Source of the DNA: a virus
Strand: one strand, 5' to 3'
Length of the DNA stretch: 64,000 nt
IMG/VR virus record: IMGVR_UViG_3300022699_000293
Location: 23,131-87,130 of that record
Below the pieces are notes generated by a model, which saw only the letters and a program-made list of their open reading frames with translations, was not told the DNA's origin and ran no database searches. Positions within the stretch are counted from its first letter, which is position 1. Each line of letters opens with the position of its first letter. The position numbers and the translations under genes are program-made. Positions 11,397 through 51,264 of the stretch are shown in pieces.

Positions 11397-11404
11397 TATA
11401 CTTG
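11397..11404 (+). promoter_or_regulatory. Putative phage promoter (TATACTTG) of the RNA polymerase operon
   Basis: TATACTTG lies 22 nt before the ribosome site AGAAGGAG of the beta/beta-prime fusion gene. It is one of at least ten near-identical boxes placed just upstream of genes in the window. Confidence 0.6.
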
Positions 11405-11425
11405 AACCGTTCAGAAGGAGAGCAA

Positions 11426-14400
11426 ATGCCTAAGCTAACACCTTTGATGATAGGTCCAGATCAACGTAGAACTCTTATTCACGAAAAAGTGAAAGAGGGT
11501 TTGAATGAATCATTTCCTATACAGTCTCGGAATAAGACATTGGAAGTGAAAGATCTTCGCATAATAAATAAAGACTATACGCCGACAGAACAGAAACGCG
11601 CAATTCTTTCTGGAGATTCTCTCTTTGAATCTGTTAAAGGAACTGTAAGTATAAAAGATAAGAAGGGTAAAATTTTAGATGAAGCCAAAAACTTTACTTT
11701 AGTCCGAATTCCTTATTTTACTCCTCGACATACTTTTATCATTGGGGGTAACGAACATTCTGTTTCTAATATGGTACGTCGTAAACCGGGAGTTTATTCT
11801 CGTAAAAGAGCTAATGGTATTTTAGAGGCAGGGTTTAACACCATCGGAGGATCTAATTTTCGAGTAAGCATGGATCCTTCTAAAGGACAGCCACAATTAG
11901 AATACGGGTCGACTAAAATTCCATTATATCCTATTTTACGTAAATCTGGAATTTCTCACGACAATATAGCTAAAGCGTGGGGGTCTAAATTAGCAGATAT
12001 TAATGAAAAAGAACTATCTTCTAAAACAGACAGATATATTGATAAGTTATATAACAAAGAAATTCCTCCTTATTTTAGAGACGAAACAAAAACTTCTCAG
12101 GAAAAAATGGAGGATATTTTAACACGTTATAAAGATGCTAAAATGGATCCTGAAGTTAATCAAAAAACTTTAGGACGTCCTCACACGCATGTTACTCCTG
12201 ACAGTTTGCTGGACGCGTCTACTCGTGTATTGAAAATATTTAACAAAGAAGAAGACGTGGACGATCAAGATAATTTGGGCTTTAAAACATTAATGTCTGT
12301 TGATGATTTTTTTAAAGAGCGTATAAAATTACACGCTAGAAACGTTGCTAATAAAACAGCGATAAAAATGGAAAGAACCCCGCAACTTAAGAAAGCATTA
12401 CCTCCAGGCCCATTTACAAAAGATCTGTTACAATTTATTTCTACTTCCTCTTTGTCTTCAATTCCAGATCAAACTAACCCTGTGGATTTGATTGACTCAG
12501 CTATGAGAGTAACGTCTTTAGGTGAAGGTGGAATCTCAACTGAACGTGCTATTCCTATCGAAGCTCGACAAACCCATGTAACTCAAATGGGTGCTTTAGA
12601 TCCTATTAGAACACCAGAATCTAGTCGTGCCGGTATTGATGTAAGAGCTGCAGTAACAGCTCAACGAGATGAAAATGGAGATATCTACGTTCCTGTTTAC
12701 GACGTAAAAAGTCAACGAGAAAAATACATTAAAGCAGGTCACCTCCAGGACTCTGTTGTAGCTTTTGCGAACCAACCCTTGAAAGGGTCTGTTGAGGCTG
12801 TCGCACGAGGTGTTGTTCGTCGTGTACCTGCACGAGAAGTAGACTACCAAATACCGCACCAATCTCGTTTATACAGTGCTACAACAAACTTAATTCCTTT
12901 TTTGGAATCGGCACAAGGCAATCGAGCTGTAATGGGTTCGAAAATGCAAGTGCAAGCGTTATCCTTGGTTAATCGTGACGCTCCTTATGTTCAAGTTGCG
13001 ACGCCTTCACAAAAATCTTTCGAACGAATGATAGGTAAGATTGTTAATCCCCATTCTCCAGTATCAGGCACTGTTAAAAAAATAGATAATGATTACATTT
13101 ACGTGTTGCCCGACCAAGAAAAACAAGCCGCAATTAACAAAGCTATTAAAATTCCTTATGACAATAATTTTCCGTTAGCTACCAAAACATATTTAAATCA
13201 TGATTTGTTTGTCAAACCTGGAGATAAAGTTAAGAAGGGTCAAACTTTAGGTACTTCTAATTTTACTAAAAATGGGGTTTTGGCACTAGGTAAGAACATG
13301 AGTGTTGCTTACATGCCGTATTACGGAAAAAATTCTAATGATGCGGTAGTGATTAGCGACAAAGCAGCAAAAAACTTAACGTCTGAACGTATGTATAAAA
13401 TCGTAGTACCTCAAGAACCCAACTTAACTTTAAACCAAAACAAACATAAAACGTATTACGGGCATAGATATAAAAAGGATCAATATAGAAGGTTAGACAA
13501 AGATGGAGTAATCGAAGCAGGTACTAAATTAACTCCACACGACCCATTGGTGGTAGGTGTTCGAAAAACTGAATTATCTCCGGATGACTTAATACTAGGA
13601 CGATTGCATCGTTCTCTTGCAAACCCTTACAAAGAATTTAAACACGAGTGGGATCACGATTATGAAGGAGAAGTTGTAGATGTAGTCAAAACACCTAAAC
13701 GTGTAACCATGACAGTTAAAACACGAGAACCTGCACGAATAGGAGACAAGTTAAGTGGGCGTTTTGGGAATAAGGGGGTTGTTTCTGAAATCATTCCTCA
13801 AGATGAAATGGTTAAGGATGAGGCTGGAAAGCCTATTGATATTATTATGACTTCCGCTGGTGTTGTGTCACGAATTAATCCTAGCCAAATTATAGAAACA
13901 GCGGTAGGGAAAGTTGCTGAAAAAACAGGAAAACCAATTATTGTAGATAACTTTACTAGAAAAGATAATGTTAAATGGGCAAGAAAATTATTAAAAGAAC
14001 ATGATTTAAAAGATAAGGAAACTGTTTACGATCCAAAATCAGGAAAAAAAATTCCTAACATTATGGTAGGTCGTCAATATCTTTATAAGTTATCTAAATC
14101 TACTGATACAAATTATAGTGCTCGAAGTATGGGTACTTATGACATGAATATGCAACCAACTCGGGGAGGAATTCAAGGAGCTAAGGCTTTAGGCAAAATG
14201 GAATTCGATGCTTTGCTAGGTCATAATGCACGCAATATTTTAAGAGAAGCTGCTACAGTTAAAAGTCAAAAGAATGATGAATTTTGGCGTGCTATTCAAC
14301 TAGGTCAAATGCCTCCTACACCAAAATCTATTTTTGCTTACGATAAATTTCTCAACATGTTGAAAGGTGCAGGTGTTCGCGTAGACCGCGAAGGTAGTAA

Positions 14401-15787
14401 AATGTCTTTAGCCCCCCTTACGGACAAAGATGTTACTGAAATGTCTTCCGGTGAAATCAAAGATGCTAAGATAGTACGCGCCAAGGATTTACGTCCGGAA
14501 ACCGGAGGTTTGTTTGATCCGGGAATAACTGGAGGTTTACGAGGAACTCGCTGGTCTCATATTTCTTTGGCTGAACCTATAATTAACCCTGTATTTAAAG
14601 AACCTGTTAGGCGGTTACTAGATATGTCTAACGCACAATTGACAGATACGCTAAAAACTAAAGGAGGAAATCATATTAAAAAAGAATTGGGTAAGATTGA
14701 TTTGGATGCTAAAGAAAAAGAGCTTAAACGACAATTAAAGAAAAAGAATCCAAGTCAAGTAGATAATTCTTTAAAACAAATAAAATACATACGCGCATTA
14801 AAAAAATTAAATTTAAAACCTGATGAAGCGTATACAATGACGAAAGTACCCGTTGTTCCGCCGGTGATTCGTCCTGTAGTACCCGGTAAAGGTGGGACAC
14901 AACTTGTTTACGGTGATGCCAATCCTTTATACCAAGATTTGATTTATATTAATAATCAAATGAAAGAAATAAAGGATCCTAAAAATCCTACACCTCCGGG
15001 TGAAGAAGAAAAACTTAGACCTTCATTGCAACAAGCTGTAGGCGCAGTTTATGGGACTGATGAGCCCGCCACAGCAAAATCTCGAGGACGAAAGCATAAA
15101 GGTTTTTTAACTTATATCTCGGGAGAGGGAGGACCAAAGCATGGATTTTTTCAATCAAAGTTGATGTCTCGAGCTCAAGATATGGCTGGGAGAGGAACAA
15201 TTGTTCCTGACAGTACTTTGGGAGTAGATGAGATTGGCGTACCTGAAGAAATGCTATGGACGATGTACCGAGATTTTATCATCAGGGGCTTAGTTCAAAA
15301 AGGTTTTCCGGCTATCCAAGCTCGTCAAATGGTGGAAGACAAACATCCAGCTGCAAAAGATACGCTAAACCGAATTATTAAGGAACGTCCTGTATTAATG
15401 AACCGCGCACCTACGTTACACAGGTACAACATTGTAGGAGCTAAACCTGTACCTGTACCAGGACGTACATTACGAGTTAATCCTTTTATAGAAGCGCATA
15501 TGAATGCAGATTATGACGGAGATGCAATGACCCTACATGTTCCCATCTCGCCTGCTGCTGTTAAAGAAGCGGAGGATATTACGCTTTCTAAACTTTTATA
15601 CGGGGATAAAACCAAAAATGACTTATTAGTTTTCCCACAGCACGAAGCGATAATGGGGATACACCAAGCTAGTGGCGCGGACGATAAGAATACAATACCT
15701 AAAAAATTTAAAAATCAGGGTGAAGCAATAGCAGCTTACAAACGTGGAGAAATTGGACTAGGAACTCGGGTAACTATTGGAAATTAA
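11426..15787 (+). CDS. RNA polymerase beta subunit fused to N-terminal part of beta-prime
   Basis: A 1453-residue fusion carrying the active-site halves of a cellular-type RNA polymerase. Beta signatures are EEDVDDQDNLGFKTL near residue 280, QMGALDPIRTPES near 395, LIPFLESAQGNRAVMG near 490, PYYGKNSNDAVVISD near 635 and GDKLSGRFGNKGVVS near 773. Beta-prime begins in frame at about residue 990 (GEIKDAKIVRAKDLRPETGG, then GLFDPGITGG). It continues with VPPVIRPVVPGKGG and NRAPTLHRYN. The catalytic NADYDGD lies at residues 1360-1366, with Tyr for the usual Phe. The beta-prime zinc-binding cysteines are absent and the beta lobes are short. It ends about 90 residues after the catalytic motif; the rest of beta-prime is encoded two genes downstream. 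ATG 11426 has an AGAAGGAG site. Confidence 0.95.
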   Translation: MPKLTPLMIGPDQRRTLIHEKVKEGLNESFPIQSRNKTLEVKDLRIINKDYTPTEQKRAILSGDSLFESVKGTVSIKDKKGKILDEAKNFTLVRIPYFTPRHTFIIGGNEHSVSNMVRRKPGVYSRKRANGILEAGFNTIGGSNFRVSMDPSKGQPQLEYGSTKIPLYPILRKSGISHDNIAKAWGSKLADINEKELSSKTDRYIDKLYNKEIPPYFRDETKTSQEKMEDILTRYKDAKMDPEVNQKTLGRPHTHVTPDSLLDASTRVLKIFNKEEDVDDQDNLGFKTLMSVDDFFKERIKLHARNVANKTAIKMERTPQLKKALPPGPFTKDLLQFISTSSLSSIPDQTNPVDLIDSAMRVTSLGEGGISTERAIPIEARQTHVTQMGALDPIRTPESSRAGIDVRAAVTAQRDENGDIYVPVYDVKSQREKYIKAGHLQDSVVAFANQPLKGSVEAVARGVVRRVPAREVDYQIPHQSRLYSATTNLIPFLESAQGNRAVMGSKMQVQALSLVNRDAPYVQVATPSQKSFERMIGKIVNPHSPVSGTVKKIDNDYIYVLPDQEKQAAINKAIKIPYDNNFPLATKTYLNHDLFVKPGDKVKKGQTLGTSNFTKNGVLALGKNMSVAYMPYYGKNSNDAVVISDKAAKNLTSERMYKIVVPQEPNLTLNQNKHKTYYGHRYKKDQYRRLDKDGVIEAGTKLTPHDPLVVGVRKTELSPDDLILGRLHRSLANPYKEFKHEWDHDYEGEVVDVVKTPKRVTMTVKTREPARIGDKLSGRFGNKGVVSEIIPQDEMVKDEAGKPIDIIMTSAGVVSRINPSQIIETAVGKVAEKTGKPIIVDNFTRKDNVKWARKLLKEHDLKDKETVYDPKSGKKIPNIMVGRQYLYKLSKSTDTNYSARSMGTYDMNMQPTRGGIQGAKALGKMEFDALLGHNARNILREAATVKSQKNDEFWRAIQLGQMPPTPKSIFAYDKFLNMLKGAGVRVDREGSKMSLAPLTDKDVTEMSSGEIKDAKIVRAKDLRPETGGLFDPGITGGLRGTRWSHISLAEPIINPVFKEPVRRLLDMSNAQLTDTLKTKGGNHIKKELGKIDLDAKEKELKRQLKKKNPSQVDNSLKQIKYIRALKKLNLKPDEAYTMTKVPVVPPVIRPVVPGKGGTQLVYGDANPLYQDLIYINNQMKEIKDPKNPTPPGEEEKLRPSLQQAVGAVYGTDEPATAKSRGRKHKGFLTYISGEGGPKHGFFQSKLMSRAQDMAGRGTIVPDSTLGVDEIGVPEEMLWTMYRDFIIRGLVQKGFPAIQARQMVEDKHPAAKDTLNRIIKERPVLMNRAPTLHRYNIVGAKPVPVPGRTLRVNPFIEAHMNADYDGDAMTLHVPISPAAVKEAEDITLSKLLYGDKTKNDLLVFPQHEAIMGIHQASGADDKNTIPKKFKNQGEAIAAYKRGEIGLGTRVTIGN

Positions 15788-17377
15788 ATGACTCATTCTT
15801 CACCAGCGCAGCGTACTGCAGCCTGGGCTAATCGGAAATACCCAGATGTAGAAAACTTGAATACTGTTTTAGTAGATAGTCCAAGTACTAGCCTACGAAT
15901 GACAAAAAAAGATGTATTAGATTATTATACAACACCAGAGGTGCAACGTAACTTGTTGCCCCAATTACGTCAAAAAGATTTAATTGCCTTAGTTGCTAGA
16001 GATCCTAACAATCCAATAATCAGAAGGTATCGTAGAAGAAAGGAACCTGTCCGCATATCTGATAAAAAAGACTTAGATTGGTATGCCAAGCGCAGATATG
16101 TTGAATTTCACCCAACGTTAAAATCCAAATCTAAAGAGTTGTGGGTAGACTTGGATGCGGGTAAGAATGTAGGTATCGACGAAATAAAACCTGCAGTTAA
16201 AGATGTACAAAAAGCTGTTTCTAAAATCCCCAACATTAAAAAAACGGACATAACATTTTCTGGTGGTCGAGGTTTTCATGTTCGAGGAGAGTTAAATAAA
16301 GAACAAAGAACAAGTTCCTTAGAAAAAGTTATCAAACGCGTTATGGCTCGTTTGGCACGACGAAATAAACGTTACACTACACGCCCTCCCAAAACCAATG
16401 AAATTCGTCTTGACACTTCTACGTTTCACGAACGAGGTTCAATACGCGCTCCTTTTTCACTTAATCAAAAAACAGGATTAGTTTCAGTTCCTGTAAAAAA
16501 TAATCATTTAAAATCTTTTGATCCTATTGCTCATGCTAACCCTTGGGCAGTGATTGCTGAATTACGACGTAAAAAGAAAACTTCGCGTGAATTTGCTCCA
16601 GGCATTCCCGAAAATAGAGCTATTAAATCTTTACCTAGCTTTAAACAACCTAAATCGTGGATTATGTCTGTTCAAGAGCATGACGCAAAAAAAGCAGGAA
16701 AACATTACGATTTACGTTTAGTGGATCCTTGGAGTGACTACGCTCACTCTTGGGCAATCCCTAAAAGTAAACTACCTCGAGCAGGAGAAAAACCTGTTCT
16801 AGCAATCCAAACTCCTACACATACATCGAACTATGCATTAACCTTTGGAGCTAAAAAACCTGAGCATATTGCCAAGGGCTACGGAGCAGGCACAGTACAA
16901 ATAAAACATAAGGAACCTGTACAATTAACTTCTTCTCCAGATTTTATTAAATTCAAAAGACAAAAAGGTCGTGGCCAAGAAGAAAATTTTGTGCTATTCC
17001 GAACTAAAGGAGATTCTTGGTTATTACGTAATGTGACAAAATCGGGAACAGTAAAGGAAGCTGTAATGAGTTCTTTATATTGGAATGGATTTGAAGAAAC
17101 GCTACAAAAATTAGGTATGTCTAATGAAGTGCGTGCGGCTATAAAACAACGTGGTCAATCGGAAAATATGCAACAATCTTTAGAAACAGAAGATCAAGGA
17201 TTACCTTCTGCGGCTTTAGCTAAACAACTACAGAAATTACCTGTACCTGAAATTGTACACAAAAATAAAGGACAAGATAGCGTTGAAAATAGACTAAATA
17301 GATCTGTATCTTGGGGACCTAAACAAGAAATTTCACATGAAGTTGCTACGGGACCTTCCCCGATAATGGGAATTTAA
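15788..17377 (+). CDS. Primase-polymerase (AEP) fused to LigD-type 3'-phosphoesterase
   Basis: A 529-residue two-domain enzyme. The N-terminal half is an archaeo-eukaryotic primase/LigD-Pol-like domain: metal-binding VDLDAG near residue 119, FSGGRGFHV near 158, LDTSTF near 208 and RGSIRAPFSLNQKTGL near 216. The C-terminal half matches the LigD 3'-phosphoesterase: VQEHDA, KHYDLRL, TPTHTSNYA and GYGAGTV keep the metal-binding His/His/Asp and the later His. There is no ligase domain and no Ku-like neighbour. The likely chemistry is nucleotide addition or primer synthesis plus removal of 3'-phosphate or 3'-ribonucleotide ends. It is wedged between the two parts of the RNA polymerase, starting at the base after the first gene's stop and ending one base before the next start, so it is certainly co-transcribed. 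Confidence 0.85.
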   Translation: MTHSSPAQRTAAWANRKYPDVENLNTVLVDSPSTSLRMTKKDVLDYYTTPEVQRNLLPQLRQKDLIALVARDPNNPIIRRYRRRKEPVRISDKKDLDWYAKRRYVEFHPTLKSKSKELWVDLDAGKNVGIDEIKPAVKDVQKAVSKIPNIKKTDITFSGGRGFHVRGELNKEQRTSSLEKVIKRVMARLARRNKRYTTRPPKTNEIRLDTSTFHERGSIRAPFSLNQKTGLVSVPVKNNHLKSFDPIAHANPWAVIAELRRKKKTSREFAPGIPENRAIKSLPSFKQPKSWIMSVQEHDAKKAGKHYDLRLVDPWSDYAHSWAIPKSKLPRAGEKPVLAIQTPTHTSNYALTFGAKKPEHIAKGYGAGTVQIKHKEPVQLTSSPDFIKFKRQKGRGQEENFVLFRTKGDSWLLRNVTKSGTVKEAVMSSLYWNGFEETLQKLGMSNEVRAAIKQRGQSENMQQSLETEDQGLPSAALAKQLQKLPVPEIVHKNKGQDSVENRLNRSVSWGPKQEISHEVATGPSPIMGI

Positions 17378-17378
17378 T

Positions 17379-19175
17379 ATGACTACACAAACTTTTGGGC
17401 GATACTTACTTAACCAACATATTCCTAAAGATTATCAATTGTCGGGAGAATCTGGGAAAAAAGAATTACGTACCAAAATGAACGCATTGGCAAAAAAAGA
17501 TCCGGTGGCTTATGTGAAAACAATTACAGATCTTAAGCGTGAAGGTGATTTCTTAGCTACAATGTCGGGACTTTCTGTGGGCTTGGATGATATTTCACCG
17601 GCACCGACACGCGATGAAGTATTGAAACCTTTGGTATCTGCTTTTAATCGCGCACAAACAGATAAACAAAGACGGCGTATTGCCGAACAAGCACAGGAAA
17701 AATTACTCAGTACTGTATCCAAACATCCAGGATCCATGACACAACAAGTAAAAAGTGGGGCTCGAGGAAAACCTGTACAGTATATGAAAATTGTCGCATC
17801 TCCTGCTGCAGCTAGAGATTCTTACGGATATACAGAACCTTGGTTGATTACTCGGTCATATGCCGAAGGTTTACGCCCTTCTGATTATTGGGTTGCGGGT
17901 AACGAAGCTATCTTAGACACTATCAAAAGCACTGTTTCAGTGTCTGAACCAGGGGAATTGACTAAAGTCCTTATGAGTAATATGGCAGATACGCTTGTAA
18001 TTGAAATTGATTGCGGCACACATAATGGTATTTCCTTAAATGTTAGTGACTCTAATATTTTAGACAGGTACTTGGCTCGAGATACCGGACGCTTTAAGCG
18101 TAATACTTTAATTACATCACAAGTACAAACGGCTTTAAAAAAAGCAGGAAAACAAAAAATCCTGGTACGTTCTCCTATGACTTGTGAGTCTGATGATGGA
18201 GTTTGTCAGAAATGCCAAGGGTTGGATGAGAAAGGTAATCCTCAAGAATTGGGTGTGAACGTTGGTGTGCGTGCAGCTTCTGCGTTAGGGGAACCTTTAA
18301 GTCAATTTGCCTTGGATGCTAAGCACGGAGTACGTACGGCTAAAGGAGATCGTGCTAGATTGCAAGGAGTTTCTGGCTTTCGTCAAATAATAGAATCGCC
18401 ACAACAATTTTTAAACAAAGCAACTCTTGCGGAACACGGCGGGAATGTAGATAAGATTGAAACTGCTCCTCAGGGAGGTCATTTCGTATACGTGAATGCT
18501 AAAAAACATTTTGTACCTCCTAATTTACAAGTAACAGCAAAAAAGGGGGATTCCATAGAACCAGGAGATTCTCTTAGTGAAGGCATTCCCAAACCTGATG
18601 AAATAGTTCGTTACAAAGGACTCGGTGCAGGACGGCAGTATCTTGTAAATACTTTGCGTGATTTGTATGCTAATCAAGGACGAGACTTAGATCAGAGACA
18701 TTTTGAATTATTAGCAAAGAACGAATTGAACCATGTGCGCGTTTTAGAAGATCCAGGTAACAATTTTTTAAAAGGAGACGTGGTATCTTATAATGCTCTT
18801 CGATCTACATTAGCTAAACAATCAAAAGAAATACCTATTAACGAGTCGTTAGGGCAAGTATTAGGAAAACCTTACTTTCATTTTTCTGTAGGTCAGCGTA
18901 TTACTCCAGCAGTTCTTCACTATTTAAAGAAAGAAGGTTTGAAATCTGTACTCATTGCTTCAAAAGCACCTAATGTAGAATTTATTATGAAACCTGCAAC
19001 ACGCGCACCCTTGTTAAACCCTGATTGGATGGCTCGATTAGGTCACAGGTACTTAAAAACAACTCTAAAGGAAGCTGCTCATTTTGGGGATATTTCTAAT
19101 TTACAAGGTACCCACCCTGTTCCTGCTTACGCTGCTGGCGTAAACTTTGGTCAGGGAAAACAAGGACGCTATTAG
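17379..19175 (+). CDS. RNA polymerase beta-prime C-terminal part (RpoC2-like)
   Basis: A 598-residue chain completing beta-prime. It begins in the funnel/rim region (FLATMSGLSVGLDDI), then QVKSGARGKPVQYMKI near residue 126, a diverged bridge helix, and DTLVIEIDCGTHNGI near 212. The zinc site follows at CESDDGVCQKC near 269, the trigger-loop lead GEPLSQFALDAKH near 304, and the C-terminal YLVNTLRDLY and clamp-type motifs. In E. coli numbering Arg933 aligns with Asp here while His936 is kept. The cut with the first RNAP gene falls close to the cyanobacterial rpoC1/rpoC2 boundary, but the chain is far shorter than cyanobacterial RpoC2, so the large trigger-loop insertion is absent. It must assemble with the 11426 product. 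Confidence 0.93.
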   Translation: MTTQTFGRYLLNQHIPKDYQLSGESGKKELRTKMNALAKKDPVAYVKTITDLKREGDFLATMSGLSVGLDDISPAPTRDEVLKPLVSAFNRAQTDKQRRRIAEQAQEKLLSTVSKHPGSMTQQVKSGARGKPVQYMKIVASPAAARDSYGYTEPWLITRSYAEGLRPSDYWVAGNEAILDTIKSTVSVSEPGELTKVLMSNMADTLVIEIDCGTHNGISLNVSDSNILDRYLARDTGRFKRNTLITSQVQTALKKAGKQKILVRSPMTCESDDGVCQKCQGLDEKGNPQELGVNVGVRAASALGEPLSQFALDAKHGVRTAKGDRARLQGVSGFRQIIESPQQFLNKATLAEHGGNVDKIETAPQGGHFVYVNAKKHFVPPNLQVTAKKGDSIEPGDSLSEGIPKPDEIVRYKGLGAGRQYLVNTLRDLYANQGRDLDQRHFELLAKNELNHVRVLEDPGNNFLKGDVVSYNALRSTLAKQSKEIPINESLGQVLGKPYFHFSVGQRITPAVLHYLKKEGLKSVLIASKAPNVEFIMKPATRAPLLNPDWMARLGHRYLKTTLKEAAHFGDISNLQGTHPVPAYAAGVNFGQGKQGRY

Positions 19176-49417: not shown

Positions 49418-50362
49418 ATGTTCGATTTGTTAGAAAAAATAGCAATACCTGAAGACGCCTTTTCGAAACGACTCAAAGCGCGTGAACGTGCTTTAGCCGA
49501 AGCTCGAGGAATGGCTCATAAACCTCCAGGTTCTAGAATTTCTGGAGTAGGTTCACATCCTGTTTTAGAAAAAGAGATTATAAAACAAACAGGACCTAGT
49601 ACAGGACAGAAAATCAAATACCATACGCTGGGACGTTTAAAACGTTTTTGGGGCCAACCAGGAAAATATAAATTATTACGCCGTGCTGGCGTGTTAGGAG
49701 GGTTAACTGGTTTGGGGTTATTAGGAAAAGCTTGGTATGACGCAGCACAAAATGAGAAAGTATTGAAAAATTTACAAGCACAACAAGCGCTACGAAAATT
49801 TAGTGCCAAAAAAGATTACCGTCCAGAAGCTCCCGTAACACCTAAACCTCCAGGATACCCATCAGAGCCTGCTCCTATGAGTACATCTGCGGGACCCCCG
49901 AATACTCCGCCGCCCCCAGAAAGTTTGGAATACGCTGAGAAATCTCAAAAACCTCCGAAACCTCCTAAGTTAAAAACAGCAGAAGAGGTTATTTCAAAAA
50001 TAGCATTTTTAGAAGAAGGTGCTACTCCCTGGCTTGCCGGTGCGGGTGGGGGTGTGGGAGGTTACCTTCTAGGTAAGAAAGTTGTTGATCCTTTACTTAA
50101 AATGAAACAAGAATCTATTTTAAACAATATACGTAAAGGACGTAAGATCGTTGAAGGTTTAGAAAAAAGTAGAAAAATAGCGCCTCTCGCGGGTGCTACT
50201 ATCGGAGCTCTTCTCTTAGCTGCTTTGACTGCTAAAAAAGCTAAAGATAAGCAAATAGAAGATATGTTGCGTATACAAGCAGCGGGAGGGCCAGGGCAAG
50301 AAGGTTTTTATCCCTATAATGTACGAAGTGTACGAGATCCGAGAGCAGCGTACTATGGCTGA
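49418..50362 (+). CDS. Glycine-zipper membrane-interacting protein
   Basis: A 314-residue protein starting one base after the previous stop. It has Gly-rich hydrophobic helices near residues 92-106, 200-218 and 255-275, separated by Pro-rich linkers. The sequence TAEEVISKIAFLEEG at about 188 looks like a second N-terminal module, suggesting fusion of two such proteins. Function unknown. Confidence 0.65.
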   Translation: MFDLLEKIAIPEDAFSKRLKARERALAEARGMAHKPPGSRISGVGSHPVLEKEIIKQTGPSTGQKIKYHTLGRLKRFWGQPGKYKLLRRAGVLGGLTGLGLLGKAWYDAAQNEKVLKNLQAQQALRKFSAKKDYRPEAPVTPKPPGYPSEPAPMSTSAGPPNTPPPPESLEYAEKSQKPPKPPKLKTAEEVISKIAFLEEGATPWLAGAGGGVGGYLLGKKVVDPLLKMKQESILNNIRKGRKIVEGLEKSRKIAPLAGATIGALLLAALTAKKAKDKQIEDMLRIQAAGGPGQEGFYPYNVRSVRDPRAAYYG

Positions 50363-50554: not shown

Positions 50555-50938
50555 GGGGGTGACACGGTTTCTACGTTTGTGCAGGCCATGTTTTAGGTGC
50601 ACGTCCCGCTTTGTGTATTTCAGCGGGTTAAAAAGAATACACAAGTAAAGTTGGCAACAACGTAATTCCTTTCCCGAAGGTTGCAGCGACACCCGTCGCC
50701 AAAGCTGCCTGATGTGGGAATGTTCTGCGCGTAAGGTGCTCAAGTAGCGCGTAGGGCAACATTCACTTGAGCTAAGCTAAAGGGATCTCTGCTATCTTTA
50801 GTCGAAAAACAAGCACGCAGAGCAATGCTGTTTCACATTCGTTTGCTTGTGTGTAACAGTAAGGAAAAGCAAACTAAACGTGTGAATGACCTGGGCATAA
50901 CCCACAGGCGGACTCGGGTTCGACTCCCGACACCTCCA
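50555..50938 (+). ncRNA. ssrA: tmRNA (ssrA)
   Basis: A 384-nt transfer-messenger RNA that would rescue stalled ribosomes and tag the incomplete product. Its 5' end GGGGGTG (50555-50561), followed by the typical ACACGGTTTCTACG, pairs with 3' CACCTCC (50931-50937). The T arm CTCGGGTTCGACTCCCGA is complete and CCA is not encoded. The tag frame at 50653-50712 reads GNNVIPFPKVAATPVAKAA and stop. That peptide resembles cyanobacterial tags (ANNIV-F...APVAA type). It opens the tRNA cluster. Confidence 0.9.
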
Positions 50939-51094
50939 CTAGTTCTTTGACAACATAATACCATGATTTCCTCTGTCCCCTCACGAAACATCCTTAATAA
51001 GGATGTCTCAGATCTCCTGACTGACGAGTTGAGGGGACAAAGCAGTTAACTGATCTGCTTATCAATAACAGTTGGTACAGTGATTTCTGTGGAA

Positions 51095-51128
51095 AAAAAG
51101 TTTAAGGTCTACGTACTTTAACCTTTTT
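51095..51128 (+). terminator. Intrinsic terminator downstream of tmRNA
   Basis: A 14-position stem (AAAAAGTTTAAGGT with ACTTTAACCTTTTT, one mismatch and one G-T pair) closes a six-base loop and ends in five T. It is likely to end the tmRNA transcript. Confidence 0.65.
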
Positions 51129-51129
51129 G

Positions 51130-51208
51130 GGAAATTAGTCGACGGACTAAAAAGGGAGACATTGCAATTGTCGCCTGGAGGTTCGAACCCTCACGCTGTA
51201 TCCGAAAA
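51130..51208 (+). pseudogene. Degenerate or unusual tRNA-Cys(GCA)-like sequence
   Basis: A good anticodon arm (GACA-TTGCAAT-TGTC, anticodon GCA at 51164-51166) and a T arm around TTCGAAC (51182-51188) are present, but no normal D arm and no local 5' acceptor strand. The 3' strand CGCTGTA could pair with TACAGTG at 51075, on the far side of the terminator. It is either a decayed tRNA or a gene interrupted in its 5' half. Confidence 0.3.
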
Positions 51209-51264
51209 TAAGTAAACTTCGGCAACTTGTTTTCCCTGTTAACAATTTGCCGAATAAAGAAAGA

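Follow-up and report, generated by a model that had tools for sequence, protein, structure and literature searches.

Does a stretch of phage DNA encode an intact tmRNA, and does the cyanobacterium-like peptide tag of this RNA tell which host the phage infects? Both questions arise from a locus in a 64,000-nucleotide stretch (here called the window) of an IMG/VR virus record of 87,130 bases, which is probably a fragment. A covariance-model search (cmscan) finds a complete one-piece tmRNA (ssrA) gene at window positions 50555-50941 on the plus strand, matched full length by RF00023 over model positions 1-374 with 100.1 bits (E 6.6e-38), against a curated Rfam cut-off of 47 bits. The sequence-only reading, which had proposed a phage tmRNA at 50555-50938, is thus confirmed, down to a 3' end that falls exactly on the discriminator base A50938. 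The bases that follow (50939-50941) are CTA at the CCA site, so that the CCA end is not encoded and has to be added to the window tmRNA; the tmRNA genes of four relatives encode it. The match is colinear and in one piece, and does not show the permuted arrangement of RF01851/RF04321, in which the acceptor piece lies upstream of the coding piece. Searched as a joint pattern, the tmRNA 5' end and the tag core occur once in the window and in none of 100 shuffles. ARAGORN called 13 tRNAs in the window and missed the tmRNA; as it calls tRNAs alone there, an annotation based only on this program would overlook the gene. The tmRNA starts 193 bases past a 314-aa ORF with no assigned function (49418-50362), and a tRNA-Leu lies 324 bases downstream. 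The noncoding DNA between the tmRNA and this tRNA (50942-51262) folds well above shuffles (z -4.3) and matches no Rfam family; a long hairpin starts there near 50974.

Table 1. Elements of the phage tmRNA gene, in window positions.
Feature	Positions	Strand	Remarks
tmRNA (ssrA)	50555-50938	+	5' end to discriminator base A50938; RF00023 match
Acceptor stem, 5' arm	50555-50561	+	pairs with 50931-50937; 7 pairs, 100% paired, 3 compensating; third pair G-U
Helix P2, 5' strand	50595-50604	+	pairs with 50878-50892
PK1	50605-50643	+	stems 50605-50609/50623-50627 and 50612-50619/50636-50643
Tag frame GNNVIPFPKVAATPVAKAA + TGA stop	50653-50712	+	resume codon GGC; from translation; frame conserved in relatives
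PK2	50718-50772	+	95% (inner stem) and 90% (loop stem) paired, with compensating changes; outer stem of 7 bp unconserved (49%)
PK3	50777-50822	+	4 compensating pairs in the loop stem (86% paired); hairpin stem 44% in this register
PK4, single ordinary	50828-50874	+	3 compensating pairs in the loop stem (50841-50846/50869-50874, 100% paired)
T arm (TCGGG-TTCGACT-CCCGA)	50914-50930	+	5 pairs, 100% paired, 2 compensating
Acceptor stem, 3' arm	50931-50937	+	partner of 50555-50561

The relatives of this gene come from two sources. A close relative of the window RNA polymerase gene is present in seven viral contigs, three of which carry the tmRNA, the rest being shorter fragments, and scanning 2.9 million viral contigs for the tag pattern gave three further tmRNA-bearing contigs and one chance protein match; an earlier scan whose pattern fixed the codons yielded zero matches, because the relatives use other codons. 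The tag frame, which runs GGC AAC AAC ... GCT GCC TGA in the window, is kept in the relatives despite differing DNA. The tags read GNNVIPFPKVAATPVAKAA in the window, as the sequence-only reading had translated it, ANNVVPFPTASVTPVAKAA in relative G005, ADNVVPFPTPMASPLAVAA in G001 and G006, ADNVVPFPTPMATPVARAA in G008 and G009, and TNNVIPFPKAKVTPVAKAA in G010, and they share the pattern [AGT][ND]NV[VI]PFP.....P[VL]A[KRV]AA, a family that is unseen among the sampled cellular genomes.

The predicted fold comprises an acceptor stem, a T arm, helix P2 and four pseudoknots, PK1 before the tag frame and PK2-PK4 after it. The structure was set on the window sequence and checked on an alignment of six related phage tmRNAs, where 86% of the cells are paired, a figure somewhat inflated by the derivation from the window, as against 37-49% when slid, with none of 500 shuffles as high. 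Compensating changes are unaffected by this derivation, and 33 pairs have both sides changed across the six phage tmRNAs, compared with 3-7 when slid. In the alignment the loop stems of PK2, PK3 and PK4 are conserved, and some of their hairpin stems are weak. The G3-U70 pair, which is the alanine identity element, is present in all six RNAs.

We therefore assign a probability of roughly three in four to the reading that this is an intact one-piece phage tmRNA, charged by the host AlaRS and carried by the host SmpB, which would tag stalled proteins for a host Clp-type protease with a peptide whose N-terminal half is cyanobacteria-like. Once expressed, as we infer it to be, the RNA would most likely be charged with alanine by the host enzyme via G3-U70, and the host SmpB would bring it to ribosomes that stall in the course of infection. 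That this partner comes from the host is implied by the search for an SmpB gene, which found none in nine phage records, themselves incomplete, although its positive controls matched. The peptide (A)GNNVIPFPKVAATPVAKAA would then be appended to the stalled protein, freeing the ribosome, and the tagged product would be destined for a Clp-type protease of the host. The N-terminal half of the tag fits either a cyanobacterial host or an earlier acquisition from such a host.

The phage tag does resemble cyanobacterial tags. In global alignment the window tag scores 45 against Cyanobacteriia (z 5.5, 0 of 300 shuffles), 25 against other Cyanobacteriota (z 1.4) and 13 against Pseudomonadota (z 0.4), and all five phage tags behave alike. 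The form approached is ANNIVPFARK... of photosynthetic Cyanobacteriia, from whose common version the V-I/V order and the PFP of the phage tags depart. A phage-derived tag pattern, whose required GGTTTC[GT]AC 5' end is unused in many phyla and thus makes the scan an uneven phylum survey, matched at least 116 stretches at at least 80 loci in 84,980 species genomes; among the matches listed (80 loci), 78 are cyanobacterial tmRNAs, all with ANNIVPFAR... tags, and 2 are not tmRNAs. With a looser pattern, 299 Pseudomonadota genomes gave 16 matches, none of them tmRNA-like. The idea that a cyanobacterium-like tag marks the host thus holds in its first part, the tag aligning better to photosynthetic Cyanobacteriia than to the other groups tested, and is not supported in its second, given that the cyanobacterial PK4a/4b is absent, the body identity is not higher and none of the genes found links the phage with a cyanobacterium as host.

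It could well be that the phage infects a photosynthetic cyanobacterium, although we would not go so far as to assert it. The tmRNA would then be of cyanobacterial descent, its tag matched to the proteases of the host and its single PK4 a product of reversion or retention. The z score above speaks for this, as does ANNVVPFARKAAALAA, which occurs in two cyanobacterial genomes and is nearer to the phage tag in its V-V order, and known cyanophages bear host-type tags. The architecture of the RNA body argues in the other direction. In one-piece cyanobacterial tmRNAs, two small tandem pseudoknots (PK4a/4b) are described as replacing PK4 (PMC1168896). A simple pseudoknot search preferred the tandem form in 31 of 51 Cyanobacteriia, a rough detection that missed it in the other 20, in 0 of 19 other Cyanobacteriota, in 1 of 20 Pseudomonadota and in 0 of 6 phages. 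All six phage tmRNAs have a single PK4 of about 41-47 nt, and the covariation in this element (helix 14) is stronger evidence for the single form than the search. The identity of the phage body reaches at most 0.48 with Cyanobacteriia and 0.51 with Pseudomonadota. A tree sampled from Cyanobacteriota, Pseudomonadota and one mycobacteriophage only does group the phages with Cyanobacteriia even when the tag columns are left out (ultrafast bootstrap 100%); however, both grouped branches are long and the identity is not higher, and since long-branch attraction is possible the tree was set aside as proof of cyanobacterial origin. The search for a prophage or relative in cyanobacterial genomes was likewise discarded as a route to the host, the terminase being found in 0 of 386 Cyanobacteriota genomes in a search without positive control. 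No photosynthesis gene is among the families listed for G010, and tRNA 3' ends, tried as host evidence, were mixed.

Nearly as probable an account is that the host belongs to a phylum outside the sample whose tags are of the NN[VI][VI]PF kind, the cyanobacterial likeness being coincidence or distant homology. This would agree with the single PK4, a generic form that Pseudomonadota and the non-photosynthetic Cyanobacteriota also have, and with the isolated relatives, which infect Salmonella and, probably, Vibrio; moreover, the case of Melnitz indicates that a phage tmRNA can mismatch its host (PMC9004378). Against it, a tmRNA with such a tag was found in 0 of 299 Pseudomonadota genomes, and the tmRNAs among the matches listed at the 80 genome loci are all cyanobacterial. 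Among isolated phages the best relatives, with 35% identity in the RNA polymerase and 28% in the terminase, are Salmonella phage Arash and Vibrio phage D181, the host of the latter being read from the phage name only. Both are too distant to give the host and carry no tmRNA, which makes the tmRNA an accessory rather than a core gene. Phage tmRNA tags are sometimes taken as host markers; here tag and RNA architecture point different ways, so that the tag alone is weak host evidence and does not by itself identify the host.

Sigma factor, portal and polymerase genes are ordered in Arash as in the window phage, whose sigma factor lies at 1331-2359 and whose RNA polymerase gene order is also like that of Arash. 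One window ORF (11402-15787) combines the beta domains of a multisubunit RNA polymerase with the initial part of beta', the catalytic motif being NADYDGD and not NADFDGD; the end of beta' is in the ORF 17379-19175, and a LigD-type primase-polymerase ORF (15788-17377) lies between the two polymerase ORFs. Beyond the window, the same phage record holds on the minus strand a gene with a reverse transcriptase domain (RVT_1; L149, 7457-8593), which may be part of a diversity-generating retroelement.

The tag type is not confined to this lineage. G010, a T4-like contig of 176 kb, encodes a Gp23 capsid protein of the T4 type, while the genes of the window phage include those for a gpA-type terminase, a ribonucleotide reductase of class II and DNA polymerase A. 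Judged from these gene families, the two phages appear unrelated except for the tmRNA, and the presence of one tag type in both suggests either tmRNA transfer or a common host group. Isolated phages gave zero matches to a 484-aa protein encoded by the T4-like relative, and BLAST of the tmRNA against phages aligned just 30 nt of the T arm, with mycobacteriophage Kumao. Among the 30 tRNAs that ARAGORN calls in G010 (loci L151-L159), one has the anticodon TTA, which reads the UAA stop, and is a possible suppressor tRNA.

The C-terminal end of the tag had been described as a Lys insertion before the final AA. Comparison with the relatives corrects this view: the window tag ends in ...PVAKAA*, the conserved form is ...P[VL]A[KRV]AA* with a hydrophobic C-terminus, and the third residue from the end is a variable column, where the window, G005 and G010 have K, G008/G009 have R and G006 has V. 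An effect of the changed end on protease recognition is plausible by analogy, because variants in the last three residues of E. coli ssrA alter degradation (PMC9382460). That the phages have altered the tag for slower degradation, or degradation by a different protease, so that ribosomes are rescued without feeding the host ClpXP, seems unlikely to us. K or R stands third from the end in 4 of 5 distinct phage tags, as against V, A or L in the 78 host-type cyanobacterial tags among the matches listed, and ANNIV-tagged marine phage contigs also vary C-terminally (ATA, ATV, VTA, VAV, ALV); but one relative keeps AVAA, VAA is retained in S-CAM1 and S-CAM3, and KAA ends are used by cells too (ANDETFAGGEAIKAA in Pseudomonadota and ...NVALKAA in one genome of the Cyanobacteriota sample). 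If the changed C-terminus does alter degradation, phages would tune host ribosome rescue at the proteolysis step. Rather less probable still is the broader proposal of a phage-specific tmRNA class in two apparently unrelated lineages, with a cyanobacteria-like tag core, a generic body and a basic residue at the protease-reading end, which would free ribosomes and change the fate of tagged proteins. A non-functional relic, or a decoy titrating SmpB after the manner of the tmRNA-inhibiting form of phage DS6A, which has little beyond the tRNA-like domain (PMC4131195), is highly improbable, as the window RNA is full-length where that of DS6A is a tRNA-like domain alone, and compensating changes maintain helices and tag frame among the phages.

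The intact one-piece tmRNA that we favor has to be set among known systems, since phage tmRNAs have already been described in print (PMC9004378, PMC4131195, PMC7162821). With the one-piece tmRNA of Cyanobacteriia it shares the one-piece gene, an NN[IV][VI]PF tag, an alanine-rich end and an unencoded CCA in the window gene; it differs in one PK4 instead of PK4a/4b, in a tag of 19 residues instead of 14-17, in the PFP and the frequent K/R third from the end, and in low body identity. The tmRNAs of marine Synechococcus phages (RF01851/RF04321) are also phage-borne, with a cyanobacteria-like tag of variable C-terminus. The isolated phages S-CAM1, S-CAM3, S-SSM7 and Sf-FS3 have permuted cyanobacterial-type tmRNAs (RF01851) with the tags ANNIVAFSRSTVAA, ANNIVAFSRILTREFARTDELVTA and ANNIVAFSRTRELATA, unannotated in their records; in S-SSM7 an annotated 'hypothetical protein' (SSSM7_025; L371, 570-788) sits within the tmRNA. 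A scan for ANNIV-F-R tags gave, among 80 matches, about 70 IMG/VR contigs with a tmRNA of this type. One viral contig (L252, 1705-1955) has a permuted cyanobacterial-type tmRNA whose tag is ANNIVAFSRSKSTALV; it lies within a cluster of tRNAs that includes a manA RNA motif. L258 (10658-10754) and about a dozen other viral contigs show a possible very short permuted tmRNA with the tag LNNIVSFRRTAVAV, in which a piece resembling a T arm and acceptor immediately precedes a GGGG(A/G)TGA...tag piece; L258 has 0 matches to Rfam tmRNA models at cut-off.

The Synechococcus phage RNAs are permuted and two-piece, have ANNIVAFSR tags and belong to Kyanoviridae (three of the four so classified), whereas the window tmRNA is one-piece, and the lineage to which it belongs is Arash-like and has a multisubunit RNA polymerase of its own. 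Bxz1-type mycobacteriophages, Kumao, Bacillus phage G and Melnitz likewise carry a complete ssrA gene on a tailed-phage genome, with another tag and architecture; that of Melnitz is two-piece with a glutamine riboswitch, and is an exception among marine phage tmRNAs, which mostly follow the host lineage (PMC9004378). Phage tmRNAs, those of cyanophages included, are thus already known, and the novelty of the window gene is its unusual tag.
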